A stretch of DNA of 64,000 nt from Nakamurella antarctica (GTDB taxonomy: Bacteria; Actinomycetota; Actinomycetes; Mycobacteriales; Nakamurellaceae): contig NZ_CP034170.1 of NCBI RefSeq assembly GCF_003860405.1, forward strand, positions 2,046,001-2,110,000, in the 5' to 3' direction. The position numbers and the translations under genes were made by a program. Below the pieces are notes generated by a model, which had not been told where the DNA came from, did not search any database, and saw nothing but the letters and a program-made list of their open reading frames with translations. Positions 28,764-62,200 of this stretch are shown here, piece after piece; position 1 is the first letter of the stretch; each line of letters opens with the position of its first letter.

Positions 28764-31070
28764 TCAGCCTTTTTCGAGGAAATCTTGAGTCACTTCGGCG
28801 ATGAGCGCATTGGCCATTTCTGCCAGACCGGGCCAACGTTTCAAGTCCTCTTCATCAGCAACGAATTTGATCGCATCTTCTCGGGCCATCAGGATGATTT
28901 CTTCATCCCGCAGCAAAGAGAGCAACTTAAGGCTGCTGGAACGTCCCGCTTGGATCCTGCCGAGGATGTCGCCCTCGCGGCGCAGCGCAAGGTCGGCCTT
29001 CGCCAATTCAAAGCCGTCGAGGGTTGCGGCCACGGCTGAAAGCCGCTGCAGCGACGGGCTCCCTTCCGGCGCCTGCGTCACCAGGAAGCAGTACCCAGCG
29101 TGCCCTCCTCGTCCGACGCGGCCGCGAAGTTGGTGCAGCTGGGACATCCCAAATCGGTCGGCGTCCAGAATCACCATCATGGTGGCATTGGGGACATCTA
29201 CACCGACCTCGATGACGGTGGTCGCCACGAGGACGTCAATCTGACCCTGTTTGAATGCCGTCATAGTGTCGTCTTTGTCGTTCGCGTTCAGGCGCCCGTG
29301 CAGCGTCGCCAACTTCAGACCGGCGAGTGGGCCCGCACTCAGTTCGGTGAGCGCGTCAACAACCGCCACAGCCTGACGTTTTCCATCGTCATCGGCGCCC
29401 TCGTACATTCCTGGTTCGCTGCCATCGAAGCTATCGAAGCCGCTCAGGGTATCGGGGCCGTCGGGCCCCACGTCACCGATCCGCGGGCACACCACGTAAA
29501 CCTGGCGCCCCTGCGCGACTTCCTCCCGTACCCGCTCCCACACCCGCTCGAGCCAATGAGGTTTCGCGTGCGCGGGAACCATGTTGGTGACAATCGGGGT
29601 GCGGCCCTTGGGTAGCTCGCGCAGCACCGAAGTCTCCAAATCCCCGTACACCGTCATGGCTACAGTGCGCGGGATCGGGGTGGCAGTCATCACCAGCACG
29701 TGGGGCGGTGATGTCTCAGGGTTGGTTCCGCGCAACTGATCGCGCTGCTCCACACCGAAGCGGTGCTGCTCGTCGACCACCACCAACCCCAGGTTGGCGA
29801 ACATTACGTGCTTGCCCAGAAGTGCGTGGGTTCCGATGGCGATCCCCGCCTGCCCGGAAGCGATGTCCAGCAGCGCCTGTTTGCGGGCCGCGGCACCGAG
29901 CGATCCCGTGAGAAGTGTGACCTTGGTCGCGCCATCGGGGGCGCCCAGTTCGCCGCCAGAGGCCAACCGGCCCAGGACTTCTCGTACCGAGCGTGCGTGC
30001 TGGGTCGCTAGCACCTCGGTCGGCGCCATCAACACCGTCTGGCGGCCGTTGTCGATCACCTGCAGCATCGCGCGCAACGCCACCACAGTTTTCCCCGACC
30101 CCACCTCCCCTTGAAGCAGCCGGTTCATCGGGTGCAGGGTTGACAGGTCGTCGCTGATCGCTCGACCCACTTCTTGTTGCCCGTGGGTCAGCTCGAACGG
30201 CAAGCGCGCGTCGAACGCGGCGAGTAGGCCGCCGGCGCGGGGTGGGCACGGCTCGGCCGGGTAGCTTTTGATCCGCGCTCGGCGCTGCGCCAGCACGAGC
30301 TGCATTGCCAGCGCCTCGTCGAAGCGGAGGCGCGTAATGGCATTTTCCAGAGTCTTCTCGTCCACCGGCCGATGGATGTGACGCAGCGCCGTCGCCAAGT
30401 CGGTGTAGCCGCGATGCGCCAGAAGTGACGTGGGGAGTGGATCAACGACCGAATCCAGTTGGTCGAGAACAAGTTTCACCGACTTCTGGATCACCCAGAG
30501 GCTCACGCCTTCGGCAAGCGGATACATCGGGGTGATGCCGTTGCCGAAATCTTCGATCGCCTCGGTAACCCCGGCGAGTTCTGCTATGTGATCAACTCCC
30601 GCTCCGTCATGGGTACTCGCCATAGTCTCGGCGTGAGCGGAGCTCATTTGCACTGTGTCTCTGAACCGACTCACCTTGCCCGAGAAAATAGCGCTGGTCC
30701 CGATCGTGAAGTCCTTCATCCGATGGCGTTGATTGAAGAAGCTGCACTCGATGTGCATCGTTCCGTCACTAATGGTGAGGATCAGAACGTGCAGGCGCCC
30801 CTTCGGACCGGGCACGTTTTTACGCTGTGATTCCCTCACCTTGACGCCGGTGACTTTGGCCACGATGGTGGCTCGTTCGCCCTCCACCAGAAAGCGCATG
30901 TCCGTCAACTCGCCGCGGCGGTTGTACTTGCGCGGGTAGTGCCGCAGCAGATCCGAGACCGTGACGAGTTGCAACTTCTGCTCCAGCAGTTTCGCCGTCC
31001 GAGCGCCGAGCAGTGAGTTGAGCTTGTCGCCTAGCCCCACACCCCTGGGCTGCTGGTCCGTGCCGGCCAC
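28764..31070 (-). CDS. recG: ATP-dependent DNA helicase RecG
   Basis: Branch-migration helicase rescuing stalled forks (768 residues). An N-terminal wedge/OB domain precedes two helicase lobes: Walker A GEVGSGKT, DEQH box, TATPIPRT, and QLRGRVGRGGHAGYC. GTG start at 31070 follows GGAGAGG. It is longer than E. coli RecG because of a small insert around FDSFDGSEPGMYEGADDD in the helicase region. Located between pyc and rpmB, as in other actinobacteria. Confidence 0.96.
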   Translation of the reverse strand: MAGTDQQPRGVGLGDKLNSLLGARTAKLLEQKLQLVTVSDLLRHYPRKYNRRGELTDMRFLVEGERATIVAKVTGVKVRESQRKNVPGPKGRLHVLILTISDGTMHIECSFFNQRHRMKDFTIGTSAIFSGKVSRFRDTVQMSSAHAETMASTHDGAGVDHIAELAGVTEAIEDFGNGITPMYPLAEGVSLWVIQKSVKLVLDQLDSVVDPLPTSLLAHRGYTDLATALRHIHRPVDEKTLENAITRLRFDEALAMQLVLAQRRARIKSYPAEPCPPRAGGLLAAFDARLPFELTHGQQEVGRAISDDLSTLHPMNRLLQGEVGSGKTVVALRAMLQVIDNGRQTVLMAPTEVLATQHARSVREVLGRLASGGELGAPDGATKVTLLTGSLGAAARKQALLDIASGQAGIAIGTHALLGKHVMFANLGLVVVDEQHRFGVEQRDQLRGTNPETSPPHVLVMTATPIPRTVAMTVYGDLETSVLRELPKGRTPIVTNMVPAHAKPHWLERVWERVREEVAQGRQVYVVCPRIGDVGPDGPDTLSGFDSFDGSEPGMYEGADDDGKRQAVAVVDALTELSAGPLAGLKLATLHGRLNANDKDDTMTAFKQGQIDVLVATTVIEVGVDVPNATMMVILDADRFGMSQLHQLRGRVGRGGHAGYCFLVTQAPEGSPSLQRLSAVAATLDGFELAKADLALRREGDILGRIQAGRSSSLKLLSLLRDEEIILMAREDAIKFVADEEDLKRWPGLAEMANALIAEVTQDFLEKG

Positions 31071-31164
31071 GCTTGGTTCCTCTCCGTTGATCAGAACTCG
31101 CGCTCTCGCCGGTTCTCGTGCACTTGCTCTGGGTGCTCCAGTCTCTCCCTGAACACCGACAACG

Positions 31165-32100
31165 CTAAATCACCCTTCGGACCAGGGCCGGCTCGGCAAC
31201 GTAATCGATGTTCAAATCCCACAATCTGCCCACCGCTACAGCAGCTTCGATGGCCTCGCCCGGCTGCCGCGTGAGCAACACCACGCCGGTTCCGACACCG
31301 GAGCCAGCAGGACCGAACGACATGTCGAGGCTTAACCAGAGCAATGCATCGGTCAGTTCGGCGTATCCGCCACTGCTGCTGAAGGTAATCCGGAAAGAGC
31401 CCGGGCTGCCTTCCGGCATCCGCGCCGAGGGCAGCAGGACAGCAGCGAGTGCTTCGAGGACCTGCGACACCGCGCCCGCCGCAGCACCCCTGGGCAGGGA
31501 CCCTGCTGCCGCAGCGCTGACTACCGCAGCCAACGAAGCACCATCGCCCGCTGGGTCTACCGCCGAGGACGCCGCGGCTGCCGCAGCGCGTGCTTCGGCC
31601 CCCCAAAATTCCTGACCGCTCTGTGTCGCGTCAGCCAGTGCGGCGGCGCCAGCCAGCAGGCCCGCTGCGAAAACGATCGGAGCACACCCGTTTTGCGAGG
31701 ATTCGAGGTCGTTGATGCGGGCACTGGCCATTCCGCTGGCGACGGCTCCGAAGTAGCGTTCCAGAACCGCGAGCACAGAGGCTGGGGCGCCCAAGCTCCG
31801 CCACAGGTCTCTGGCCCCATGGACATCGGGCGGGGCGAAGGATGATTCACCCGCCCCTAGTCCCGCCGCCGCCATAAGCTTCCCCGTCCACACCGGGACC
31901 CGCTCGCGCAGGGCTCGTCCCGCACGCTCTGCCCCGACAGCGTCGGAAACCGACCGGAGGTGCAGGTGCTCCGCAACCCTGTCCATCCAGAGCTGGATCA
32001 CCACTGCATCCAAGGTTCTACTGCCTGCTGCAGCGCCTAGGCCCTCTCTGTTCTCTGCGCGCTCCCCATGCTGTTGGTGGGAGTCAGGGTTTTCGCTCAC
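31165..32100 (-). CDS. Ala-rich protein in the DAK2 position, unassigned
   Basis: 311 residues, strongly Ala-rich, no signal peptide and no catalytic motif I recognise. In actinobacteria the slot between recG and rpmB normally holds a DAK2/FakA-type kinase gene. A segment near residue 30 (LDAVVIQLWMD) resembles a DAK2 N-terminus, but the phosphate-binding DGDTGTN motif is absent and the chain is too short for the usual DAK2 plus DegV-like layout. It may be a degenerate descendant or an unrelated replacement. GTG start, with AAAGAG five bases upstream. The frame is intact and codon use looks normal, so it is probably expressed. Confidence 0.65.
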   Translation of the reverse strand: MSENPDSHQQHGERAENREGLGAAAGSRTLDAVVIQLWMDRVAEHLHLRSVSDAVGAERAGRALRERVPVWTGKLMAAAGLGAGESSFAPPDVHGARDLWRSLGAPASVLAVLERYFGAVASGMASARINDLESSQNGCAPIVFAAGLLAGAAALADATQSGQEFWGAEARAAAAAASSAVDPAGDGASLAAVVSAAAAGSLPRGAAAGAVSQVLEALAAVLLPSARMPEGSPGSFRITFSSSGGYAELTDALLWLSLDMSFGPAGSGVGTGVVLLTRQPGEAIEAAVAVGRLWDLNIDYVAEPALVRRVI

Positions 32101-32393
32101 GGCGTCTCTTTCGGGAGGATGACTGATAGCGGCAAGCGCTGTGGCAGGCGGCAGAATTGCTGAGGTGGATCAGACCGGATGGTGATGACCCGCCCCGCCC
32201 ATCCTGCCCGTCGCTTGCGCCGGGGGGTGAACTTCCCGCGAGGGCTGGAGCTGATTTTGCGCGTGCGACGATCGGGCGTTACTCTTGCAAGGTTGCCCGG
32301 CTTCGGCCGGGTTCTTCCATGTCTGCTCACGCGTCCGGCCCAACATCATCAGGGTTTGAAGTCGAATGCGAATATTTGATTGGGGTGTGCCAA
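32101..32393. promoter_or_regulatory. Divergent intergenic region before rpmB
   Basis: About 290 bases between the unassigned gene and rpmB. It must contain the rpmB promoter and that of the minus-strand gene. No RNA gene, repeat or clear operator is visible. Confidence 0.4.
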
Positions 32394-32588
32394 GTGGCTG
32401 CCGTCTGTGATGTCTGTGGCAAGGGCCCTGGCTTTGGGATGAACGTGTCCCACTCCCACCGTCGCACCAAGCGTCGTTGGAACCCGAACATTCAGGCCGT
32501 GCGCGCCCTGATCAAGCCGGGAACCGTCCGCAAGGTCAATGCATGCACCTCCTGCCTGAAGGCTGGCAAGGTCGTTCGCAGCGCGTAA
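32394..32588 (+). CDS. rpmB: 50S ribosomal protein L28
   Basis: 64-residue ribosomal protein, whole family sequence present ([32 protein letters not shown]). The CxxC pairs indicate the zinc-binding form. The frame is open well upstream, but GTG 32394 gives the family N-terminus (MAAVCDV); a weak GGGTG lies before it. A terminator follows directly. Confidence 0.96.
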
Positions 32589-32600
32589 TTTACTTCGCCA

Positions 32601-32638
32601 AGAGCGGTGACGGGAACCCCGGTTCCTGTTGCCGCTTT
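32601..32638 (+). terminator. Rho-independent terminator of rpmB
   Basis: 15-bp stem with G-U pairs (32601-32615 with 32620-32634), 4-base loop, then a run of five T from 32634. It lies 12 bases after the rpmB stop. Confidence 0.85.
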
Positions 32639-32660
32639 TTGCTATTCCCTCCCAACTGAA

Positions 32661-32700
32661 CGTGACCTGCCACTCCAGGCGTCGGGTGTGGCAGGTCACG
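32661..32700 (-). terminator. Inverted repeat downstream of ilvE
   Basis: Perfect 13-bp inverted repeat CGTGACCTGCCAC/GTGGCAGGTCACG with a 14-base loop, 11 bases after the ilvE stop on the minus strand. It lacks a T-run, so it may be a Rho-assisted or bidirectional terminator. Confidence 0.6.
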
Positions 32701-32711
32701 TCTGACTCGCT

Positions 32712-33806
32712 CTAGCAGAGCGGGTACATCCAACCGTTTGGGTCTGGCGCGTCGCCCACCTGTAGGGCTGTCAAGGCCGCGCGGAGCTGCATCGTCACGG
32801 GACCAGGCTCCCCGTTGCCAATGACAAACCCACCGGACTCGTGCTTGACCGATCCGACCGGCGTGACCACTGCCGCCGTCCCACAGGCAAAGACCTCGGT
32901 GAGTTCGCCCGCCGCAGCCCTCTTGTCCCACTCATCGGTCGAGATTCTGCGTTCAGTAGCGGTGTAACCGAGCTCACGGGCAATCTGCAAGAGCGAGCGT
33001 CTGGTGACACCTGGCAACAGCGAGCCACTCAATTCCGGGGTGACAATCTCGATCTCGTTGCCTGAGCCAAAAACGAAGAACAGGTTCATCCCGCCCATCT
33101 CCTCGACCCAGCGGCGTTCCACAGCATCCAGCCACACGACTTGGTCACAGCCTTTGTGGGCCGCCTCCGCCTGGGCCGCGAGCGAGGCGGCGTAGTTGCC
33201 GCCGGTCTTCGCGGCGCCGGTACCCCCGGGCGCCGCGCGCACGTACTCCGTCGACCACCAGACACTCACCGGCTTCACGCCGCCAGCGAAATAGGCACCC
33301 GCTGGCGAGGCGATAACGGCGTAGACGTATCGACTTGCTGGCCGCACACCCAGACCGACTTCGGCGGCAAACATGAAGGGCCGCAGGTACAGTGACTCCT
33401 CCGCGCGAGACGGCACCCACGCGCGGTCGGCTTCCACCAGCACCCGCAGTGACTCAACGAAGAGCTCTTCGGGCAGTTCCGGCATTCCCATCCGGCGCGC
33501 CGAGTTGTTAAGCCTCTCCGAGTTTTCGCCCGGTCGGAATGTCGAGACACTTCCGTCGGGCTGCTGGTAGGCCTTAATGCCTTCGAAAATTTCTTGGCCG
33601 TAGTGCAGCACCATGCTTGCCGGATCGATCAAGAACGGTGCGTATGGAACGAGTCGGGCGTCATGCCAGCCCTTGTCGCCCGTCCAGTCGATGATGACCA
33701 TGTGGTCGGTGAAGTGCTTGCCAAAGCCTGGAGATTCCAGCTTGGCGCGTCGGCTTGTTTCGCTGGCCGGCGCCGGATTGGGAGTGCGAGAAAACTGTGT
33801 AGTCAT
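32712..33806 (-). CDS. ilvE: Branched-chain amino acid aminotransferase IlvE
   Basis: PLP enzyme for the last step of valine, leucine and isoleucine synthesis and the first of their breakdown (364 residues). The PLP lysine lies in [11 protein letters not shown]; the [23 protein letters not shown] and [10 protein letters not shown] blocks match class IV transaminases of the IlvE2 type. ATG start at 33806. Monocistronic, with a hairpin downstream and an intergenic repeat upstream. Confidence 0.95.
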
Positions 33807-33879
33807 GGCGCCACAATATCGCTTGCTCTGACGTCAAACTAAAACGCGGGGCAAGGCCAGCTTCCAGGGACTCGCACTT

Positions 33880-33945
33880 GCGCCGAGCGGTGCGTTAGTG
33901 CGCGGGAACCCGGGAACATTCGGCCCATAGAGCACCGCTCGGCGC
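33880..33945. repeat. Intergenic inverted-end repeat, copy 1
   Basis: 66 bp with perfect 14-bp inverted ends GCGCCGAGCGGTGC (33880-33893) and GCACCGCTCGGCGC (33932-33945), enclosing 38 bases. Lies between the gcvT stop and the ilvE start. The ends match those of the element at 36673-36737. Confidence 0.85.
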
Positions 33946-33962
33946 AGTGGCGACCTCACGAG

Positions 33963-35081
33963 CTACCGCACGTGCGAGGTGACGAATGGCGGTTTCACGA
34001 TGCGGGCAACGAGTTTGCGCCCGCGAACATCCACCAATACGTCATCACCCTCACCCAGGCCGGCCGAAGTATCGATCAGCGCCAAGGCGATGCCTTGACC
34101 CAAAGTTGGCGAGTGGGTCCCGGAGGTTACCTCCCCGATGACGGTCCCATCGGAGGCCATAACTTGTTGGTGCGCGCGGGGTATGCCCCGATCCAACACC
34201 AGCAGACCCCATGCCAGCCGCGACGGGCCAGCCTCCTTCTCCGCGAGCAGAGCATCGCGCCCGAAGAACTCCTCCTTCTTCCAGCCGACGGCCCACCCGG
34301 ATCGTGCCTGCACGGGCGAGATGTCAGCCGAAAGATCCTGCCCGTGCAGGGCGTACCCCATCTCGGTCCGCAGAGTGTCTCGGGCTCCAAGTCCTGCGGC
34401 TCGGCCGCCGATAGCATCGGCCTGGGCGAGCAGCGAATCCCACAGCGGCAGCGCAACATCCCAAGCGGGAAGTAGCTCGTAGCCGTGCTCGCCGGTGTAC
34501 CCGGTTCGGCACACTCGCACTGGCAAACCTTGGAACTCGCTGTCGGCCCAAGCCATGTACTCCAGATCGGTGGGCAGGCCCACCGCTGCCAGCGTCGCGG
34601 CCGACTGCGGACCCTGAACTGCGATCACGCCGAAATCCCGGTGCTGATTCGTGACGGTGATACCGCTACCCTGGGCGGCCTCGGACAAAAGCTCAACCAC
34701 CGCAGCGGTATTGGCGGCGTTCGGGACAAGGAATACTTCCTCATCGCTCACGTAATAGGCGATCAAATCGTCCACGACACCGCCGGAGTTGTTGCAGCAC
34801 AGGGTGTATTGCGCCTGGCCCGGCCCAATCCGCGTGAGATCATTTGAGAAGCAACGGTTCACGAACTCCGCTGCCCCCAGACCGGTGATGCTGGCTTTAC
34901 CGAGGTGGGAAACGTCAAAGATGCCGACCGAGTTTCGGACCGCCTGATGCTCGGCGACAACTCCTGAGTTGGCATAGGAAATCGGCATCTGCCAGCCACC
35001 AAACGGCGCCATCGTTGCGCCAAGAGCGAGGTGGGCAGAATGTAAGGGAGAAAGCAGCAACTCGTCTGCGGGAGTGGTCAT
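33963..35081 (-). CDS. gcvT: Glycine cleavage system T protein (aminomethyltransferase)
   Basis: Transfers the methylene group from lipoyl-bound aminomethyl on H protein to tetrahydrofolate, releasing ammonia (372 residues). It starts with a GcvT-typical [20 protein letters not shown] and has [10 protein letters not shown], and a [13 protein letters not shown] block. ATG start. No gcvP or gcvH lies in the window; an isolated gcvT between ilvE and pepA is the usual actinobacterial arrangement. Uses lipoylated H protein and so depends on LipA/LipB. Confidence 0.95.
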
Positions 35082-35192
35082 AGAAGTACGGTAGCGAGAA
35101 GGTCAAGACCGGCGCCAGCTACCGTCTACTGCTATATCGGCCAGCATCGGAATCCGTCCGGCCTTTTTTAACGAAAGAGGAGCACCACCGCA

Positions 35193-36641
35193 ATGAGCTC
35201 AGCAGCCCTGTCCGCCGCTAACCCGGTTACCGCCGCAGTCGAAGCCCTCGTGATCGGCCTCTATGCGAGCGATGATGGACCAATCGCCGCCGATCCAGCT
35301 CTCGGCGACCTGGCAGAGTTACTCGCCGTCGCAGGAGCCACGGGCCGTCCGGGCGAGACCACCGTGATCCCAGCTCCCGCCCACTACAAGGCGCTACGGA
35401 TCGTGGGCGCCGGCCTGGGCCCGCAGTCCGACCTCACCCCGGAGCGGATCCGCAAAGCAGCCGGAGCAGCCTCCCGCGCACTTGCCGGTAACCGGAGCGT
35501 CGGCAGTTTGCTGTCGCGGCTCAACATCGGCGCAGCAGCCGAAGGGCATCTGCTGGGGGCGTACGTGTTTGACGCCTACAAAGAACCCAAGAAGCAGCCG
35601 GTCGAAAAGTTTGTGCTTTTCACCGAAGCCAATTCCGCAGCAAACAAGTCGATCCTGCGCAGGGCCGTCATCGGGGCGGAAGCCGTTGGCCTGGCCCGCG
35701 ATCTGGTCAATACTGCCCCTAACGACCTGCCGCCAGCTGTCTTCGCCCAACGCGCCAACGCTGCTGCGACCGAAGCTGGGCTCAAGGTTGAAATCCTGGA
35801 CGAGAAGGCTCTGGCCAAAGGTGGCTACGGCGGCATTCTCGGAGTCGGGGCGGGATCGTCGCGGCCACCACGCCTCGTTCGGATTACCTACACACCCACC
35901 CGATCCAAGGCCACGGTCGCGCTGATCGGGAAGGGCATCACATTCGACTCCGGCGGGCTATCCATCAAACCAGCCGCTGGCATGGACCATATGACGAGCG
36001 ATATGTCAGGTGCAGCAGCCGTAGTCGCGACCGTCATCGCCGCAGCAGCCCTCAAGCTGCCGATCACTATCACCGCGACCGCGCCGCTGGCGGAGAATCT
36101 GCCCTCCGGCAGTTCTTACCGTCCCGGCGACGTACTCACCCACTTCGGCGGCAAGACGGTTCACGTGCTCAACACCGACGCCGAAGGGCGTCTGGTTCTT
36201 GCTGACGCCATTGTTCGAGCGGTCCAGGACAAGCCGGATTTCCTGATCGAGACCTCCACCCTGACGGGCGCTCAGGTGGTTGCTCTTGGAAACAGGACCA
36301 TGGGAGTCATGGGTACAGAGGCGTTCCGAGACCGCATCGCACTGTTGGCAAGGGAGGTCGGCGAAGGTGGCTGGGCGATGCCGATGCCGGAGGAACTGCG
36401 CGAGGGGCTCGACTCGGCGATAGCCGATATCGCCAACGTCGCAGGCGACCGCGCAGGCGGCATGCTTGTCGCAGCGCACTATCTCAAGGAGTTTGTCCCC
36501 GAGGGCCTGACCTGGGCCCACTTGGACGTCGCCGGTCCCGCATTCAATACCTCAAAGCCGTATGGCTACACCGGCCAGGGTGGCACGGGAATCCCCGTAC
36601 GCACCCTGTTGGCCGTGCTGGAGGACATTGCGGGGGCCTGA
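35193..36641 (+). CDS. pepA: Leucyl aminopeptidase (M17 family)
   Basis: Hexameric two-metal cytosolic aminopeptidase (482 residues). The metal-binding core is visible: GKGITFDSGG, DMSGAAAV, and the M17 signature NTDAEGRLVLADA. An RBS (AGAGGAG) 10 bases before ATG 35193 supports the start. Divergent from gcvT. The second intergenic repeat lies directly after its stop. Confidence 0.95.
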   Translation: MSSAALSAANPVTAAVEALVIGLYASDDGPIAADPALGDLAELLAVAGATGRPGETTVIPAPAHYKALRIVGAGLGPQSDLTPERIRKAAGAASRALAGNRSVGSLLSRLNIGAAAEGHLLGAYVFDAYKEPKKQPVEKFVLFTEANSAANKSILRRAVIGAEAVGLARDLVNTAPNDLPPAVFAQRANAAATEAGLKVEILDEKALAKGGYGGILGVGAGSSRPPRLVRITYTPTRSKATVALIGKGITFDSGGLSIKPAAGMDHMTSDMSGAAAVVATVIAAAALKLPITITATAPLAENLPSGSSYRPGDVLTHFGGKTVHVLNTDAEGRLVLADAIVRAVQDKPDFLIETSTLTGAQVVALGNRTMGVMGTEAFRDRIALLAREVGEGGWAMPMPEELREGLDSAIADIANVAGDRAGGMLVAAHYLKEFVPEGLTWAHLDVAGPAFNTSKPYGYTGQGGTGIPVRTLLAVLEDIAGA

Positions 36642-36672
36642 CGCTGGCCCTCCCCCACCTCTCCCCCACCTC

Positions 36673-36737
36673 TCGCCGAGCGGTGGGCTATGACCTACAT
36701 CTCGCCGAAATCGGCGCACCAGGGCACCGCTCGGCGA
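36673..36737. repeat. Intergenic inverted-end repeat, copy 2
   Basis: 65 bp with perfect 13-bp inverted ends TCGCCGAGCGGTG (36673-36685) and CACCGCTCGGCGA (36725-36737). The 39-base interior contains its own hairpin (CGCCGA/TCGGCG, 36703-36716). Located between the convergent ends of pepA and the next gene, where it could also serve as a terminator. Confidence 0.85.
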
Positions 36738-36757
36738 ACGTTTGACGCAGCACGCCG

Positions 36758-37099
36758 TTAATCGCTGGATCGAGCCCTCTTGGCCAGCAGAGTTTGTCGA
36801 CGTGAATAGTCGCGCATCCGCTGCGGGTACCCGACAACGGTCGCGTCGTAGATCGGGATCGAATGATGACGTGCAAACTGCTTCGCCTCATCCGGCGAAC
36901 TAATCGGCCGCCGGGTGAACTCACCGTCGTGGCCGACCAGCATCATCGTGGATTCTGTCATCGAAGTTCTCGGCTCCACATACACTTCGACGCCGCGTCG
37001 CGAATTGACCCACTCATCAAGGTAGGCAGCGGTTTCTTCCCGTTCGTCGCTGGAGCTCGAGGGTGAGCCAATTTTCTTTTTACGACTGAACCAACCCAT
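36758..37099 (-). CDS. Small charged protein, unassigned
   Basis: 113 residues, no family recognised, no signal peptide or membrane segment. It begins MGWFSRKKK and contains a Ser-rich stretch, then a likely folded part (about 25-95) ending in IPIYDATVVGYPQRMRDYSR, followed by a basic tail. RBS AGGAAGG supports ATG 37099; the frame is open to 37423 without support. Divergent from lpdA and convergent with pepA. Short proteins with this start occur beside lpd in other actinobacteria as far as I recall; function unknown. Confidence 0.75.
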   Translation of the reverse strand: MGWFSRKKKIGSPSSSSDEREETAAYLDEWVNSRRGVEVYVEPRTSMTESTMMLVGHDGEFTRRPISSPDEAKQFARHHSIPIYDATVVGYPQRMRDYSRRQTLLAKRARSSD

Positions 37100-37359
37100 G
37101 CGAAGACCTTCCTGACCGCGGCACAGAGCCGCTGACCTGACCAACTGCCCTTGTTCGGGCCGCGGGAGTGCCTTGATCCTCTCCCATTGACGGGCCAGCG
37201 TAATTACGTTGATGGTGAACGATACGCAGTCACCAGACCCCGGGCGCTGGATAAACATGGCAAAGGTGCGAGAATAGGTGATGGAGTCTGGGACACGCGT
37301 GGCTGTCTCTACCGCAGCCCACCCTGCTCCCATGAGATCACTGAGGAGTCCCACCAGCA

Positions 37360-38736
37360 ATGACCGAGAACAACTTTGACCTGGTCGTCCTAGGCGGAGG
37401 GTCCGGTGGCTACGCCGCCGCACTGCGCGCAGCCGAACTGGGCCAGAGCGTGGCGCTTATCGAGAAGAACAAGCTCGGCGGCACATGCTTGCACTGGGGC
37501 TGCATTCCGACCAAAGCGCTGCTGCACGCGGCCGAGGTAGCGGACAACGCCCGTGAAGGAGCGCAGTTCGGTGTTCAGTCAACCTTCTCCGGCATCGACA
37601 TGGCTGGCTTGGCCAGTTACAAGGACGGCGTCGTCGCCCGCCTCTACAAAGGCCTGCAAGGTTTAGTGAAATCCCGCGGGATCACCGTCGTGGAAGGGGC
37701 GGGCACGTTCGCAGGCGGGACCACCGTCCGTGTCGGTGGCGATTCCTACACCGGCAAGAACGTCATCCTGGCTACCGGTTCCTACTCCCGCACGCTGCCG
37801 GGTCTCGAACTGGGCGGCCGCGTCATCAGCTCATACGAAGCACTCACATTGGACTACGTGCCCAAGAGCGTGATCGTTCTGGGCGGCGGGGTCATCGGCG
37901 TTGAGTTCGCATCTGTGTGGAAGTCCTTCGGTTCCGATGTCACGATCGTCGAGGGCCTACCGCGATTGGTCCCCGTTGAAGACGAGTGGGCCTCGAAGAT
38001 CCTGGAGCGCGCCTTCCGTAAGCGCAAGATCAACTTCAAGGTGGGAGTCCGCTTTAGCGGCGTCACCCAGGACGATGCGGGAGTGACCGTCACCCTGGAG
38101 AACGGCGAGACCTTGCAGGCAGATCTGCTGTTGGTCGCCGTTGGTCGTGGCCCCATGACGGCGGGCTGCGGATTCGAAGAAGCGGGCGTGGCAATGGATC
38201 GCGGATTCGTGACCACCAACGAGCGCTTGGCCACCAACCTGCCGAACGTCTATGCGGTTGGCGACATCGTCGTTGGCTTGCAGCTCGCGCACCGCGGCTT
38301 CCAGCACGGCATCTTCGTCGCCGAAGAAATCGCTGGCTTGGCACCGCGGGTAATCACCGACGCCAACATCCCAAAGGTCACGTACTGCGATCCAGAAATC
38401 GCCTCCGTCGGGTCATCCGAGGCCAGCGCCAAGGAACTTCACGGAGCAGACAATATCGAGACTTTGGTCTACGACCTCGGCGGTAACGGGAAGTCACAGA
38501 TTTTGAAGACCGCTGGCGGCATCAAAATTATTCGCCGCAAGGGCGGTGAGGTCTTAGGAATTCACATGGTCGGTGCACGGGTCGGCGAATTGGTCGGCGA
38601 GGCTCAGCTAGCCGTGAACTGGGAAGCATTCCCCGAGGATGTTGCACCCCTGATCCATGCTCACCCCACTCAAACCGAAGCGCTGGGTGAGGCGTTCTTA
38701 GCCTTGGCCGGCAAGCCTTTGCATGTCCATAACTGA
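37360..38736 (+). CDS. lpdA: Dihydrolipoyl dehydrogenase
   Basis: FAD/NAD flavoprotein (458 residues), E3 component reoxidising dihydrolipoyl groups of 2-oxoacid dehydrogenases and glycine cleavage. Seen: FAD-binding GGGSGGYAAALRA, the redox disulfide GGTCLHWGCIPTK, a second NAD-binding GGGVIGVEFA, and C-terminal HAHPTQTEALGEA with the catalytic His-Glu pair. GAGGAG lies about 12 bases before the ATG, a somewhat long spacing. It is followed after 43 bases by sucB. Confidence 0.96.
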   Translation: MTENNFDLVVLGGGSGGYAAALRAAELGQSVALIEKNKLGGTCLHWGCIPTKALLHAAEVADNAREGAQFGVQSTFSGIDMAGLASYKDGVVARLYKGLQGLVKSRGITVVEGAGTFAGGTTVRVGGDSYTGKNVILATGSYSRTLPGLELGGRVISSYEALTLDYVPKSVIVLGGGVIGVEFASVWKSFGSDVTIVEGLPRLVPVEDEWASKILERAFRKRKINFKVGVRFSGVTQDDAGVTVTLENGETLQADLLLVAVGRGPMTAGCGFEEAGVAMDRGFVTTNERLATNLPNVYAVGDIVVGLQLAHRGFQHGIFVAEEIAGLAPRVITDANIPKVTYCDPEIASVGSSEASAKELHGADNIETLVYDLGGNGKSQILKTAGGIKIIRRKGGEVLGIHMVGARVGELVGEAQLAVNWEAFPEDVAPLIHAHPTQTEALGEAFLALAGKPLHVHN

Positions 38737-38779
38737 CCAGCCAGCACTCAAAACCCTCAAAAAATAGGAGACTCGCCGC

Positions 38780-40621
38780 ATGTCCCAGTCCGTGCAAATG
38801 CCGGCCCTTGGCGAAAGCGTTACCGAAGGCACCATTACCCGTTGGTTGAAGAACGAGGGTGATCGCGTCGAGGTCGACGAGCCGCTGGTGGAGGTTTCAA
38901 CCGACAAGGTTGATACCGAGATCCCCTCACCCTTTGCTGGCATCTTGGAAAAGATCGTGGTCCAGGTGGACGAGACCGCAGAGGTAGGCGCCGACTTGGC
39001 GATTATCGGCGACGGTTCTGGTGGCGGCTCCGCACCAGCAGCCGAGCCCGCGACCGAGGCAGAGGCTGAAGTCCCCTCCACCGACGCACCCGCACCCGGT
39101 GAAGATTCAGCTGCGCACGCGCCAGTACCGGCCGCTCCTGCTGATTCGGCGAATGAGTCTGCTGGCTCCGGCGCCTCGACTGACTCGCCTGATCAAGGAT
39201 CCAGCACCTCTGTGACGTTGCCCGCCATGGGCGAGTCGGTGACCGAAGGTACCGTGACGCGGTGGCTCAAGTCCGTTGGTGATTCCGTCGCTGTGGATGA
39301 ACCACTGGTCGAGGTCTCCACCGACAAGGTCGACACCGAGATTCCGTCGCCGGTTGCAGGGACCCTGCTCTCTATTACCGTCGCCGAGGACGAGACCGCC
39401 CAGGTGGGCGGCGAACTTGCCGTCATCGGTACCGCTGGCGGATCTGTTCCAGCGGAATCCGCTCCGAGCCCCGCCGCCACTCCTGCGCCGGTCGCTGCTC
39501 CCACTTCAGCGCCACTCGAAGCAGTAGCCGCACCCGCTGAGCCAGCACCCGCCGCACCTGATGCAGCCGCACCCGCTGCTGCACCCGCACCCGCTGCTGC
39601 GCCAGCACCCGCTGCTGCACCCGCGTGGCAGCCCCCGACACCGCCGGCGACTACCGGTTATGTCACCCCCGTCATTCGCAAGCTGGCAGCTGACCACGGC
39701 GTTGACTTGGGCGAAGTTACGGGCACCGGGGTAGGTGGCCGGATTCGGCGAGAGGACATCACTGCAGCCGCAGCCGCCAAGACTGCGGCCGCAGCAGCCG
39801 CGGCGCCGTCCGCCGTTGCACCCTCCGCGCCCGTCGCACCGGCTTCTGCTGCTGCAACGTCGTCTGCTCCCACCACACCCAGCGCCGAGGCTGCGGCACT
39901 TTCAGGTACTACGCAGAAGCTGCCGCGCATCCGCCAATCGATCGCCAAGAACATGCTGTTGGGGCTTCACACAGCCGCGCAGCTGACGACGGTGATCGAA
40001 GTGGACGTGACTCGCATTGCTGATCTGCGTTCCAAGGCCAAGAGCGGCTTCGAATCCCGCGAGAACGTCAAGCTTTCGTTCCTGCCATTCTTCGTGAAGT
40101 CCGCCATCGAGGGCTTGAAGCAGTTCCCAGTTCTCAACTCAACGATCACCGAGGACCTGAAGGAGATCACCTATCACGCGGGCGTCAACCTCGGCATCGC
40201 CGTGGACACCCCTCGCGGTCTGATCGTCCCCGTCATCAAAGAAGCTGGTGACCTCAACATTGCCGGCATCGCCCGCAAGATCGCTGATCTTGCTTCTCGT
40301 ACTCGGGACAATAAAATCGGTCCTGACGAGCTATCCGGTGGCACATTCACCATCACGAATACGGGTTCCGTCGGCGCGTTGTTCGACACCCCCATCTTCG
40401 TTCCACCGCAGTCGGCGATCTTGGGAACCGGAGCCATCGTGCGTCGGCCCATGGTCATCAAGGATGCTGACGGCAACGAAGTCATCGCTATTCGGTCTAT
40501 GTGCTACCTGGCGCTCTCCTACGATCACCGCAACATCGACGGCGCGGATGCCTCGCGATTCCTTGGCGCAATGAAGATTCGCCTCGAAGCGGGCGACTTC
40601 TCTGGAGATCTCGGGCTGTGA
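38780..40621 (+). CDS. sucB: Dihydrolipoamide acyltransferase with two lipoyl domains
   Basis: E2 component (613 residues) of an actinobacterial 2-oxoacid dehydrogenase complex. Two lipoyl domains carry modification lysines K43 and K183 in identical [11 protein letters not shown] contexts. Long Ala/Pro linkers follow, then a peripheral subunit-binding domain ([19 protein letters not shown]) and a catalytic domain with [14 protein letters not shown] (HxxxDG). In mycobacteria the orthologue (DlaT) serves pyruvate dehydrogenase and peroxynitrite defence, so substrate assignment as succinyltransferase is by annotation habit only. Preceded by AAATAGGAG. Stop overlaps the next GTG. Confidence 0.94.
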
Positions 40622-59591: not shown

Positions 59592-62200
59592 CGAACACCT
59601 CTCCCGCCCACCCCGCGTCCACCGAAAGCTCCCCCCCAGCACCCAATCTCAGGGCGCGGGCCACATTGCGATCGAGCGTTGCCGTGGCCGCTCGGATCCT
59701 CCCGACGCACTATCCGCTGCGGACCTTTATCGCCGTAAATCCTCTTGACGGGCTCAAGCATCTCCCGTTCGACACGGCCGCCTTTCGGGCCGGTGAGCTC
59801 TACGGTGCCACGGCCGCACTTCCCGAAGGTAAGTACCGCGACTACTTTTCGCAGGGCCGCATCAGCACCGTCGACCTCGACCATGCCTTGGCTCGCAGAT
59901 ACCCGCAGCTAGGCTCGGAGCCGCCGCTGGCATCAGGTGGCAAAACCTTCAGCGCCTTCGACATCTTGCGAGCCGATCTGCTCGCCGGAGCTCCGGCCCC
60001 TGAACCGGTACGGGTCTACCGGACCCGGAGCGAGCAAATCGCTCCGTCGGTTGCCGACCAGGTCAACGAGCTAAGCAGCCGATGGTGCGCGGCCTACCTC
60101 ACCACCGACAGCACCGCGTGGGCAATGCCCGAGCATCCTGACGGGTTTTTCGCGTCGTGGCGTGCACTGGCCTATCGCGACCCCACCTTAAACCGCTCCG
60201 TCCGGGCCGCGCTCCGTAACCTTCCTGAGCGCGCGGATGACGCGGCTCTGATCGCTCTCAACGCCCTCGGCGTCGCCGATTCCGCTTACCGCGACTACGC
60301 CACCGCGCACCTGACGCAGCAGCCCGGCTGGCCCTCGCACATCCGTTGGCATAACGACCACACGGCGCCGGTGCGGATCACGATGTTCGATTATCTCGCG
60401 ATCCGGCTGACGTATGAGGCGCTGCTCCTCGCTGGCCACCAAGCGCCTGCCACGCCTGCCACCACCTTGACCCCCGAGGTCGCCGAACGCCCTGCGCATC
60501 TTCCGGCTCGGGCATCTCACGCCCTTGCCGCGCTGGGTATCACGAGCCCCCTCGACACCGATATCACCCGGGCAATACGCCTTCTCGGTACCTTGCCTGT
60601 CAAAGACCGCACGTTGGTGTGGGTGGAGGCTTTCGAGTTCCACTACCGTGACGCCTTGCTCAAGCAGATGCCCGCGACGGATGTCGAGCCGGCCAGCACC
60701 GCCTCAGGTCCACGGCCAGCGGCGCAGATCGTCAACTGCATCGACACTCGGTCTGAGGGACTGCGCAGGCACCTCGAGGTCACTGACAAGTACCAAACCC
60801 TCGGGTTCGCGGGCTTCTTCTTTGCTGCGATCCGGTTCACCGATTTGGCTCAAGGGGACTCCAACGATTTGTGCCCCGTGCTCATTAAGCCGTCTTTCGT
60901 CGTCAGCGAGACCCCCGCCCCGGGCGCGGATCTGGGCAGCCGAAAGCGCTTGGCGGGGCTGCAGACCCTGACGGGAGCGCACAATGCGTTCCACAGCGCG
61001 AAGGACGACTCTGTGAGTCCATACGCGCTCGCTGAAGCCTCCGGGTGGTTGGCCGGACCCGCAAGTGCCGCGCGGACGCTCGCTCCCCGGGTGGGATCGG
61101 CAATCGCCCGGTTCGTGCGGCGCCAGGTCGCGCCAGCAGCCGATACCCAGATCAGCCTGGAAGACGGGTTCGGCATCGCGGATCGCGTTAACTACGCACG
61201 CGTCGCGCTGTCCACCATGGGCCTGATCCGCAATTTTGCACGGCTCGTCGTCTTCTGTGCCCACGGCAGCACCACGAGCAACAACCCGTACCAGGCATCG
61301 CTCGACTGCGGGGCCTGCGGCGGGCAACGCGGGGGGCCCACGGCTCGGACGGCAGCGTTGATCTTCAACGATCCCGAAGTCCGCGTTGGGCTGCGGGAGC
61401 ACAACATCAACATTCCTGCCGACACTGTCTTCATATCGGCCGAGCACGATACCGCCACCGACCGGGTCGTCATTTTGGATGAGTATGCGATTCCGCCCAG
61501 CCATCGGGCCGAGCTAGACGAACTTTGTGCGGACCTCGCCGCTGCTGGAGAAGCCCTCACCGCCGAACGCAGCGCGCTCCTGCCCTACGCGCCAGGGCGG
61601 GCTCGGAAGAACCCCGCCGTAGCATCACGGCACGCCAGCACGCGCTCTGCTGACTGGGCCCAGGTGTATCCGGAATGGGGTCTGGTGGGGAACGCCGCGT
61701 TCATCATCGGGCCCCGCGCCCAGACCTACGGGATTGATCTAGAGCGCAGGGCGTTCCTACACTCCTACCTGCCGCAGGACGATCAGGACGGCAGCGTCCT
61801 CGAGACTATCTTGACCGCCCCGTTGGTGGTCGCGCAGTGGATTAACGCGCAGTACTACTTCTCCACGGTGGCACCGGATATTTTTGGTGCAGGCAGCAAA
61901 ACGATCCATAACGTGCTGGGCGGCGTGGGCGTTCTCGCCGGGCACGCCGGCGACCTGCAACTGGGTCTGCCGTGGCAATCGGTTGCCGTTGGCGACACCC
62001 TCATTCACGAGCCAATGCGGCTGTTGACCGTCATCCATGCACCCACCGATCGCATAGACACGATCGTCGAACGGAACCCCATCCTGCAGGAGCTCCTGCA
62101 CGGCGAGTGGTTCACCTTCACCGCGCCAGATTACGAAACGGGCACCTGGAAACTCCGCACTGCCGCGGGTTGGCAGTCGTGGTCCGGACCGAGCAACTGA
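59588..62200 (+). CDS. dabA: DabA carbonic anhydrase-like subunit (DUF2309)
   Basis: 870 residues, DUF2309. The zinc-site residues of the beta-carbonic-anhydrase-like centre are all present: C384 and D386 in CIDTRSE (the CxDxR motif, R388), H559 in CAHGS, and C574 in DCGACGG. The 175-residue spacing from C384 to H559 and 15 residues from H559 to C574 agree with the reference DabA (C351, D353, H524, C539). It hydrates CO2 to bicarbonate inside the cell, coupled to DabB. ATG 59588, starting within the dabB stop; the open frame upstream is a shadow of dabB. Confidence 0.95.
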   Translation: MTNTSPAHPASTESSPPAPNLRARATLRSSVAVAARILPTHYPLRTFIAVNPLDGLKHLPFDTAAFRAGELYGATAALPEGKYRDYFSQGRISTVDLDHALARRYPQLGSEPPLASGGKTFSAFDILRADLLAGAPAPEPVRVYRTRSEQIAPSVADQVNELSSRWCAAYLTTDSTAWAMPEHPDGFFASWRALAYRDPTLNRSVRAALRNLPERADDAALIALNALGVADSAYRDYATAHLTQQPGWPSHIRWHNDHTAPVRITMFDYLAIRLTYEALLLAGHQAPATPATTLTPEVAERPAHLPARASHALAALGITSPLDTDITRAIRLLGTLPVKDRTLVWVEAFEFHYRDALLKQMPATDVEPASTASGPRPAAQIVNCIDTRSEGLRRHLEVTDKYQTLGFAGFFFAAIRFTDLAQGDSNDLCPVLIKPSFVVSETPAPGADLGSRKRLAGLQTLTGAHNAFHSAKDDSVSPYALAEASGWLAGPASAARTLAPRVGSAIARFVRRQVAPAADTQISLEDGFGIADRVNYARVALSTMGLIRNFARLVVFCAHGSTTSNNPYQASLDCGACGGQRGGPTARTAALIFNDPEVRVGLREHNINIPADTVFISAEHDTATDRVVILDEYAIPPSHRAELDELCADLAAAGEALTAERSALLPYAPGRARKNPAVASRHASTRSADWAQVYPEWGLVGNAAFIIGPRAQTYGIDLERRAFLHSYLPQDDQDGSVLETILTAPLVVAQWINAQYYFSTVAPDIFGAGSKTIHNVLGGVGVLAGHAGDLQLGLPWQSVAVGDTLIHEPMRLLTVIHAPTDRIDTIVERNPILQELLHGEWFTFTAPDYETGTWKLRTAAGWQSWSGPSN

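Follow-up and report, generated by a model that had tools for sequence, protein, structure and literature searches.

Among described systems, REPINs come closest to the repeats reported in the present study; in the parts of the published accounts on which we draw, they consist of paired and inverted conserved ends around a variable spacer, occupy extragenic sites, and lie beside a partner gene, and a GT(A/G)G head marks REPs (PMC3116915; PMC2817692). A second structured family, the Myt-1 stem-loops of M. tuberculosis, was described as 75 copies of 72 nt (PMC2267715). The units found in Nakamurella antarctica are similar in size and also form a structured multi-copy family, and Myt-1 may be a mycobacterial counterpart, an identity that is a guess from a comparison by description rather than by sequence; the portion of the Myt-1 account cited here mentions no partner gene (PMC2267715). 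The protein that we propose as the partner of the Nakamurella units resembles, in the folds of its two parts, AbiEi antitoxins, the Vsr mismatch endonuclease, and I-Bth0305I; unlike in AbiEi and Vsr systems, both folds are joined in one protein and no AbiEii toxin gene adjoins its gene. In a listing-level search of the open-access literature, we found no description of DUF559/AbiEi-type genes paired with palindromic repeats and none of a nuclease pairing for Nakamurella repeats, and this gene-repeat pairing seems to be previously undescribed.

The window, which is the whole stretch of 64,000 nucleotides analysed, corresponds to positions 2046001-2110000 of the single 3.378-Mb contig. Two elements, neither assigned to a strand, were found where an earlier sequence-only reading had placed them: element 1 at 33880-33945 (GCGCCGAGCGGTG...CACCGCTCGGCGC), with a 62-bp core (33882-33943) and two palindromic base pairs per side, and element 2 at 36673-36737 (TCGCCGAGCGGTG...CACCGCTCGGCGA), with a 61-bp core (36675-36735), two palindromic bases on its left, and two on its right. 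The shared ends, near-equal length, and differing interiors recognised in that reading are borne out by the cores, and the 12-mer CGCCGAGCGGTG has four exact matches in the window, all inside these two elements. Family profiles agree with the neighbours it had named. The aminomethyltransferase gene gcvT (33963-35081, minus strand; NF001567 and TIGR00528 over cut-off) has its 3' end beside element 1, and the leucyl aminopeptidase gene pepA (35193-36641, plus strand; NF002073 over cut-off) has its 3' end beside element 2, with 33 bp between the stop codon and the element; both are ordinary neighbour genes. As with element 1, an element lies 3' of gcvT in G010, a genome of the same genus (gcvT 62.5% identical over 280 aa; distances 15 and 57 bp). 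An Rfam search of window positions 30000-40000 returned nothing relevant. A short tandem duplication without strand (36648-36672; ctcccccacct, twice), read from the sequence, directly adjoins element 2, and tandem duplications also adjoin other copies in this genome, at 2727840-2727973, at 61850-61925, and to the right of 3260504; one of those beside a copy has a 32-bp unit, the left half of the element, repeated four times.

These two sites belong to a family that in Nakamurella antarctica is composed of about 20 hairpin-like units, each with constant 11-bp ends, a variable interior, a length of 61-62 bp, and a strong predicted hairpin. The pattern GCCGAGCGGTG-N28..58-CACCGCTCGGC occurred at 12 exact places genome-wide and, when read backwards, at none; the spacer measured 39 bp in 11 of these copies and 40 bp in one, element 1 of the window. 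With the spacer fixed at 39 bp and up to three mismatches allowed in the ends, 16 places were found (the reversed pattern again gave 0), which together with the 62-bp copy, element 1, make up the total of 17 used below. A covariance model added at least four further candidate places in this genome among the matches listed, in counts that include both strands. Exact copies were also present in two genomes of the genus, with 23 in G003 and 14 in G010, all of 62 bp, and in none of the other 14 genomes of the genus or the 44 genomes of the order covered by that search. Mean interior identity was 47% in Nakamurella antarctica and 73% in G003/G010, against 94% and 100% for the ends, a comparison that on its own is biased because the copies were found by their ends. 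Pairing within the interiors in the former genome occurred in 59.6% of cells versus 55.7% after shuffling (18 of 500 shuffles were as high), and selection for it was set aside as weak. In Ktedonobacter robiniae (locus L016, 5362-5421), the same 11-bp ends close a perfect palindrome of 60 bp whose interior is unrelated, possibly by coincidence.

The copies tend to sit shortly after stop codons. With genes called by a simple hexamer method trained on this genome, thirteen of the 17 lie within 80 bp of the 3' end of a gene, whereas random placement in 179 intergenic gaps would give 24% (p = 8e-6). Convergent genes flank eight of the copies, two others or some of the same overlap a predicted ORF, and the annotated neighbours are ordinary genes. 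The sequence-only reading had favoured a scattered family of REP-like palindromes over a pair of chance terminators, to be weighed against the outcome of only two copies with no enrichment between genes; a genome-wide search for the spaced ends instead yielded 12 exact copies and 17 with mismatches, mostly intergenic, and the excess near 3' ends given above. No consistent direct repeat, such as the target-site duplication of a MITE, was seen in the flanks of the copies. Clustering at the replication origin was also considered (the first ORFs of the contig read by eye as dnaA and dnaN, with recF at 4.3 kb): eight of the 17 copies lie within 160 kb of the contig start (Rayleigh p = 0.015), but the p value rises to 0.11 and 0.21 once neighbours are merged, and a cluster around the nuclease gene described below accounts for the data better.

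Whether the ends are maintained was addressed at orthologous sites of G003 and G010. Of 24 G003 copies in hand, 17 had a corresponding G010 region in the fetched stretches; 14 of the counterparts carry the element, and at the other three different sequence has taken the place of the spacer, leaving neither a clean empty site nor a target duplication. At 13 sites (one of the 14 was dropped for its inexact G003 ends, and the comparison used the best-matching 62-mer of each G010 stretch), mismatches number 6 over 286 positions in the ends, 6 over 156 in the inner stem, and 55 over 364 in the loop (ends versus loop, p = 3e-9). Picking G003 copies for exact ends could lower the end rate by about half, which falls short of a sevenfold difference. 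Immediately outside the elements, sequence is often scrambled between the two genomes, and no element movement was seen in this comparison. Conservation of the ends at old sites suggests continued use of the arms at each of them, either by the nuclease or by the same protein acting as a regulator, and does not fit a purely selfish, decaying element. At one G010 locus (C1:28033-29692, L116), two copies enclose approximately 1.5 kb for which the matching G003 site has no counterpart.

The covariance model also detected families with other arms in G015 and G006. Among 26 chosen copies from six genomes, 13 of the 17 pairs in the stem showed change on both sides, a level that none of 500 shuffles reached; covariation of this kind can arise in RNA but equally in DNA whose arms a single protein recognises. 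When 150 genomes of the order were searched with a second model under stricter filters, matches were found in 30, and outside the genus these were mostly in G026, G033, and G062. Another genome, G063, which is probably a Mycobacterium, contains 61-63 bp hairpins with GAGCAGACGC-type arms; the best match of the gene beside one of them is PDB 2wu8, which we take to be an M. tuberculosis enzyme, and GCGAGCAGACGC hairpins are abundant in M. tuberculosis. A G063 hairpin had no match in either the plasmid or the phage collection, and at two loci (L135 and L156) the hairpin occupies the entire gap between two convergent stop codons. A 14-mer of the GCGAGCAGACGC arm occurs in a primer given in a mycobacterial paper (PMC4155686). 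Sites shared between species included several close cases, a number that exceeds a rough chance estimate by only a few, and are not used as main evidence because they are near chance and because two of the cases are the nuclease gene itself. Nuclease genes beside GATCTTGCACTT or GATCATGGAG arms (L247, L248, L250, and L251 of family f15; L241 and L243 of family f16) represent a second broad arm class.

Regarding the partner of the repeats, the sequence-only reading had pointed to a RAYT-type transposase, and this suggestion failed. The Y1 transposase profile PF01797 had 0 matches in Nakamurella antarctica and in every genome of the genus with an element family; its one match in the 17 genus genomes was in G016, in which the models find no element family, and five of 14 control genomes had matches. 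The label "REP-like" thus holds for appearance and not for membership of the REP/RAYT class, the partner being a gene for an AbiEi-like/Vsr-fold nuclease. This ORF lies outside the window, at 83062-84021 of the genome, between copies at 82900-82960 and 84005-84065, the second of which overlaps its last codons; its neighbours encode a Gfo/Idh-type dehydrogenase and a luciferase-like monooxygenase, and no AbiEii toxin gene was present among them. In the predicted structure of its 319-aa product (pLDDT 87), residues 25-211, the DNA-binding region, match an AbiEi antitoxin (Z 8.8), a match that is only loose because the rmsd is 7.2. Residues 214-319 match Vsr-type nucleases with Z values of 10-12 (10.1 to 1cw0 and 11.5 to 3r3p), the nearest folds include the homing endonuclease I-Bth0305I, and E219, D251, E262, G265, and D277 are invariant in 18 homologues. 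By this model, the domain falls in the Vsr-like fold superfamily with conserved acidic residues, and nuclease activity is predicted for it. Profile searches were less sharp: the protein scored 32.3 bits against PF18741, below the curated cut-off of 38.2, the proteins at the G003 and G010 nuclease loci had no PF18741 match, and the PADLOC AbiEi profiles matched the protein weakly and some of its homologues clearly. Since dN/dS between G003 and G010 is approximately 0.14, the nuclease gene is kept.

Homologous ORFs in G003 and G010, which are 41-42% identical, are also enclosed by elements, as are ORFs of the same type in G002, G033, and G047; all five loci had been examined because of their elements, and these observations do not count as tests. 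Pfam assigned six of ten ORFs near element pairs to the MTES_1575/DUF559 type and one to polyprenyl synthetase, with no assignment for another, and the G003 and G010 ORFs showed only a weak SfsA-nuclease match. The association has exceptions: the pair at 61926/63089 in Nakamurella antarctica encloses a dehydrogenase gene rather than a nuclease gene, the main G015 family has arms that differ from those at the cognate-type gene of G015, and a tblastn search of 19 loci at other close pairs for nuclease remnants hit only the G006 gene itself (L205). Nakamurella antarctica also contains a pair of 60-bp hairpins with GCCGAGTGGTCGCT arms at 2942975-2943034 and 2943720-2943779 (L213), 745 bp apart, with no trace of a nuclease between them.

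Bracketing by matching arms was then compared with controls. Within the genus, matching-arm hairpins were found on both sides of seven of 22 PF18741 loci (L183-L204, a set that omits eight long ORFs, L175-L182), as opposed to one of 424 other ORFs under the same settings (p = 2e-9). A cognate-subfamily profile run against 150 genomes supplied 30 loci for inspection, with almost every genome represented by a single locus; across the order, matching arms bracketed 13 of these, with L244, which is cut by a contig end, scored as a miss. Outside the genus, 8 of 22 were bracketed, which is the cleanest bracketing figure; under the same settings, 400 kb drawn from 19 of the genomes outside the genus showed bracketing at none of 212 ORFs and at 63 of 6000 random intervals (p = 2e-9 and 7e-11, respectively). 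The control in Nakamurella antarctica and G010 found it at none of 410 ORFs and at 12 of 10,800 random intervals, with an ORF picker that missed the G010 nuclease gene itself. Seventeen of the 30 homologous loci fail the thresholds, leaving passes at fewer than half, and the loci are not all independent because some are in both tests and the G003/G010 pairs are orthologues. Homologues of the protein were present in 123 of the 150 genomes searched, and PF18741 genes in 16 of the 17 genus genomes, many of them without nearby hairpins and some in genomes for which the models report no element family.

The arms also follow the protein. Arm classes, assigned by hand, cluster on the protein tree (8 changes versus a shuffled mean of 14.2; 0 of 200 shuffles as low), and arms taken by script correlate with protein distance across 33 loci (Mantel r 0.43, p = 0.0002). 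In Nakamurella antarctica, the region within 25 kb of the nuclease gene holds five of the 17 copies against 0.25 expected, and three of 15 when the two bracketing copies are removed (p = 0.001), a clustering that was noticed after the fact. Within the genus, a cognate-type protein scoring above 490 bits was found in six genomes, and five of these six have element families (p = 0.001), with none detected by the model search in the other eleven; this co-occurrence is to some degree circular, since the same genomes supplied the sequences for both profiles, and the search would miss families with other arms elsewhere.

Taken together, we consider it fairly probable that the hairpin unit and the AbiEi-like/Vsr-fold nuclease work as a pair in the manner of REPIN-RAYT, the enzyme being a different one. 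The two window sites would be copies of a dispersed 61-62 bp inverted-repeat unit, the 11-12 bp arms of which would serve as the recognition part, with an interior mostly free to drift except in length. The AbiEi-like region may recognise the paired arms, either as two duplex sites or as an extruded hairpin, and the Vsr-like domain may nick or cut at the unit; repair or template switching would then generate further copies elsewhere, and the ones that landed directly behind a stop codon would survive. The likeness to REPIN-RAYT lies in the anatomy (conserved inverted ends, a variable spacer, and extragenic placement), in the bracketing of the partner gene, in the co-variation of repeat and protein, and in the clustering of copies near the gene, all of which match the published descriptions, to the extent of the parts cited (PMC3116915; PMC2817692). 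The pair is not a member of that class because the enzyme fold differs, AbiEi-like/Vsr rather than Y1 transposase, and because the GT(A/G)G head is missing: the head was not seen as a rule in the flanking bases, and the arms begin (C)GCCGAGCGGTG. The copy number also differs, at approximately 20 as opposed to the up to hundreds given in those parts of the REPIN descriptions.

Several other explanations share part of this evidence. A transcription regulator is an unlikely alternative, in which the AbiEi-like protein would bind the inverted arms, the units at its own gene being autoregulatory and the dispersed ones a regulon, with the nuclease acting elsewhere and the units immobile. AbiEi proteins autoregulate through inverted repeats, and the AbiEi-like fold over residues 25-211 would suit such a role, as would a fixed length and, at old sites, much stronger conservation of the ends than of the loop, both of which are expected of paired binding sites. 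The copies nevertheless lie past stop codons rather than in promoters, a matching unit is also found on the 3' side of the nuclease gene, the stem changes on both sides between families, and interiors within a genome share sequence beyond the arms. It is less likely still that the hairpins are an older, independent family and that the nuclease, like a homing parasite, inserts into or beside them and thereby acquires a unit on both sides. The proximity of its fold to I-Bth0305I and the many PF18741 genes of the genus without nearby hairpins are in keeping with this idea; however, the arms vary by gene and track the protein tree, which a parasite of any hairpin would not need, and the dispersed copies cluster around the organism's own nuclease gene.

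Bidirectional terminators or mRNA 3'-end hairpins that were spread by ordinary duplication, with an incidental link to the nuclease, would lie past stop codons and between convergent genes and would fold strongly, as the units do, yet we consider this account improbable. Because a T-run of at least four within 15 nt downstream was found in only two of 19 gene-directed cases, the units are not ordinary Rho-independent terminators; moreover, terminators need pairing and not constant arms, whereas here the arm sequence is uniform in each genome but changes from one genome to another, and the bracketing of nuclease genes is left unexplained. That the units are a REP/REPIN family of the classical kind, moved by a RAYT (Y1) transposase, is hardly credible. 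Paired inverted conserved ends, a variable spacer, and extragenic sites beside a partner gene are features of such families in the cited parts of their descriptions (PMC3116915; PMC2817692), but PF01797 is absent from every genus genome with an element family, the arm has no GT(A/G)G head, and copies number in the tens, not the hundreds.

If the pairing of hairpin unit and AbiEi-like/Vsr-fold nuclease is right, palindromic repeats are partnered by a nuclease without the RAYT fold, and gene-repeat partnerships would have arisen more than once; the predicted DNA target of each member of a widespread actinobacterial family would be readable from the flanks of its gene, and the origin of many intergenic hairpins in the order would become directly testable. 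The wider proposal, that AbiEi-like/Vsr-fold (DUF559-type) proteins form an order-wide actinobacterial class in which each recognises and spreads or maintains its own hairpin repeat, appears to us evenly balanced. If true, it would set beside REPIN-RAYT an independent counterpart built on a different catalytic fold, explain many of the intergenic hairpins of mycobacteria and their relatives, and assign a role to a large uncharacterised protein family.
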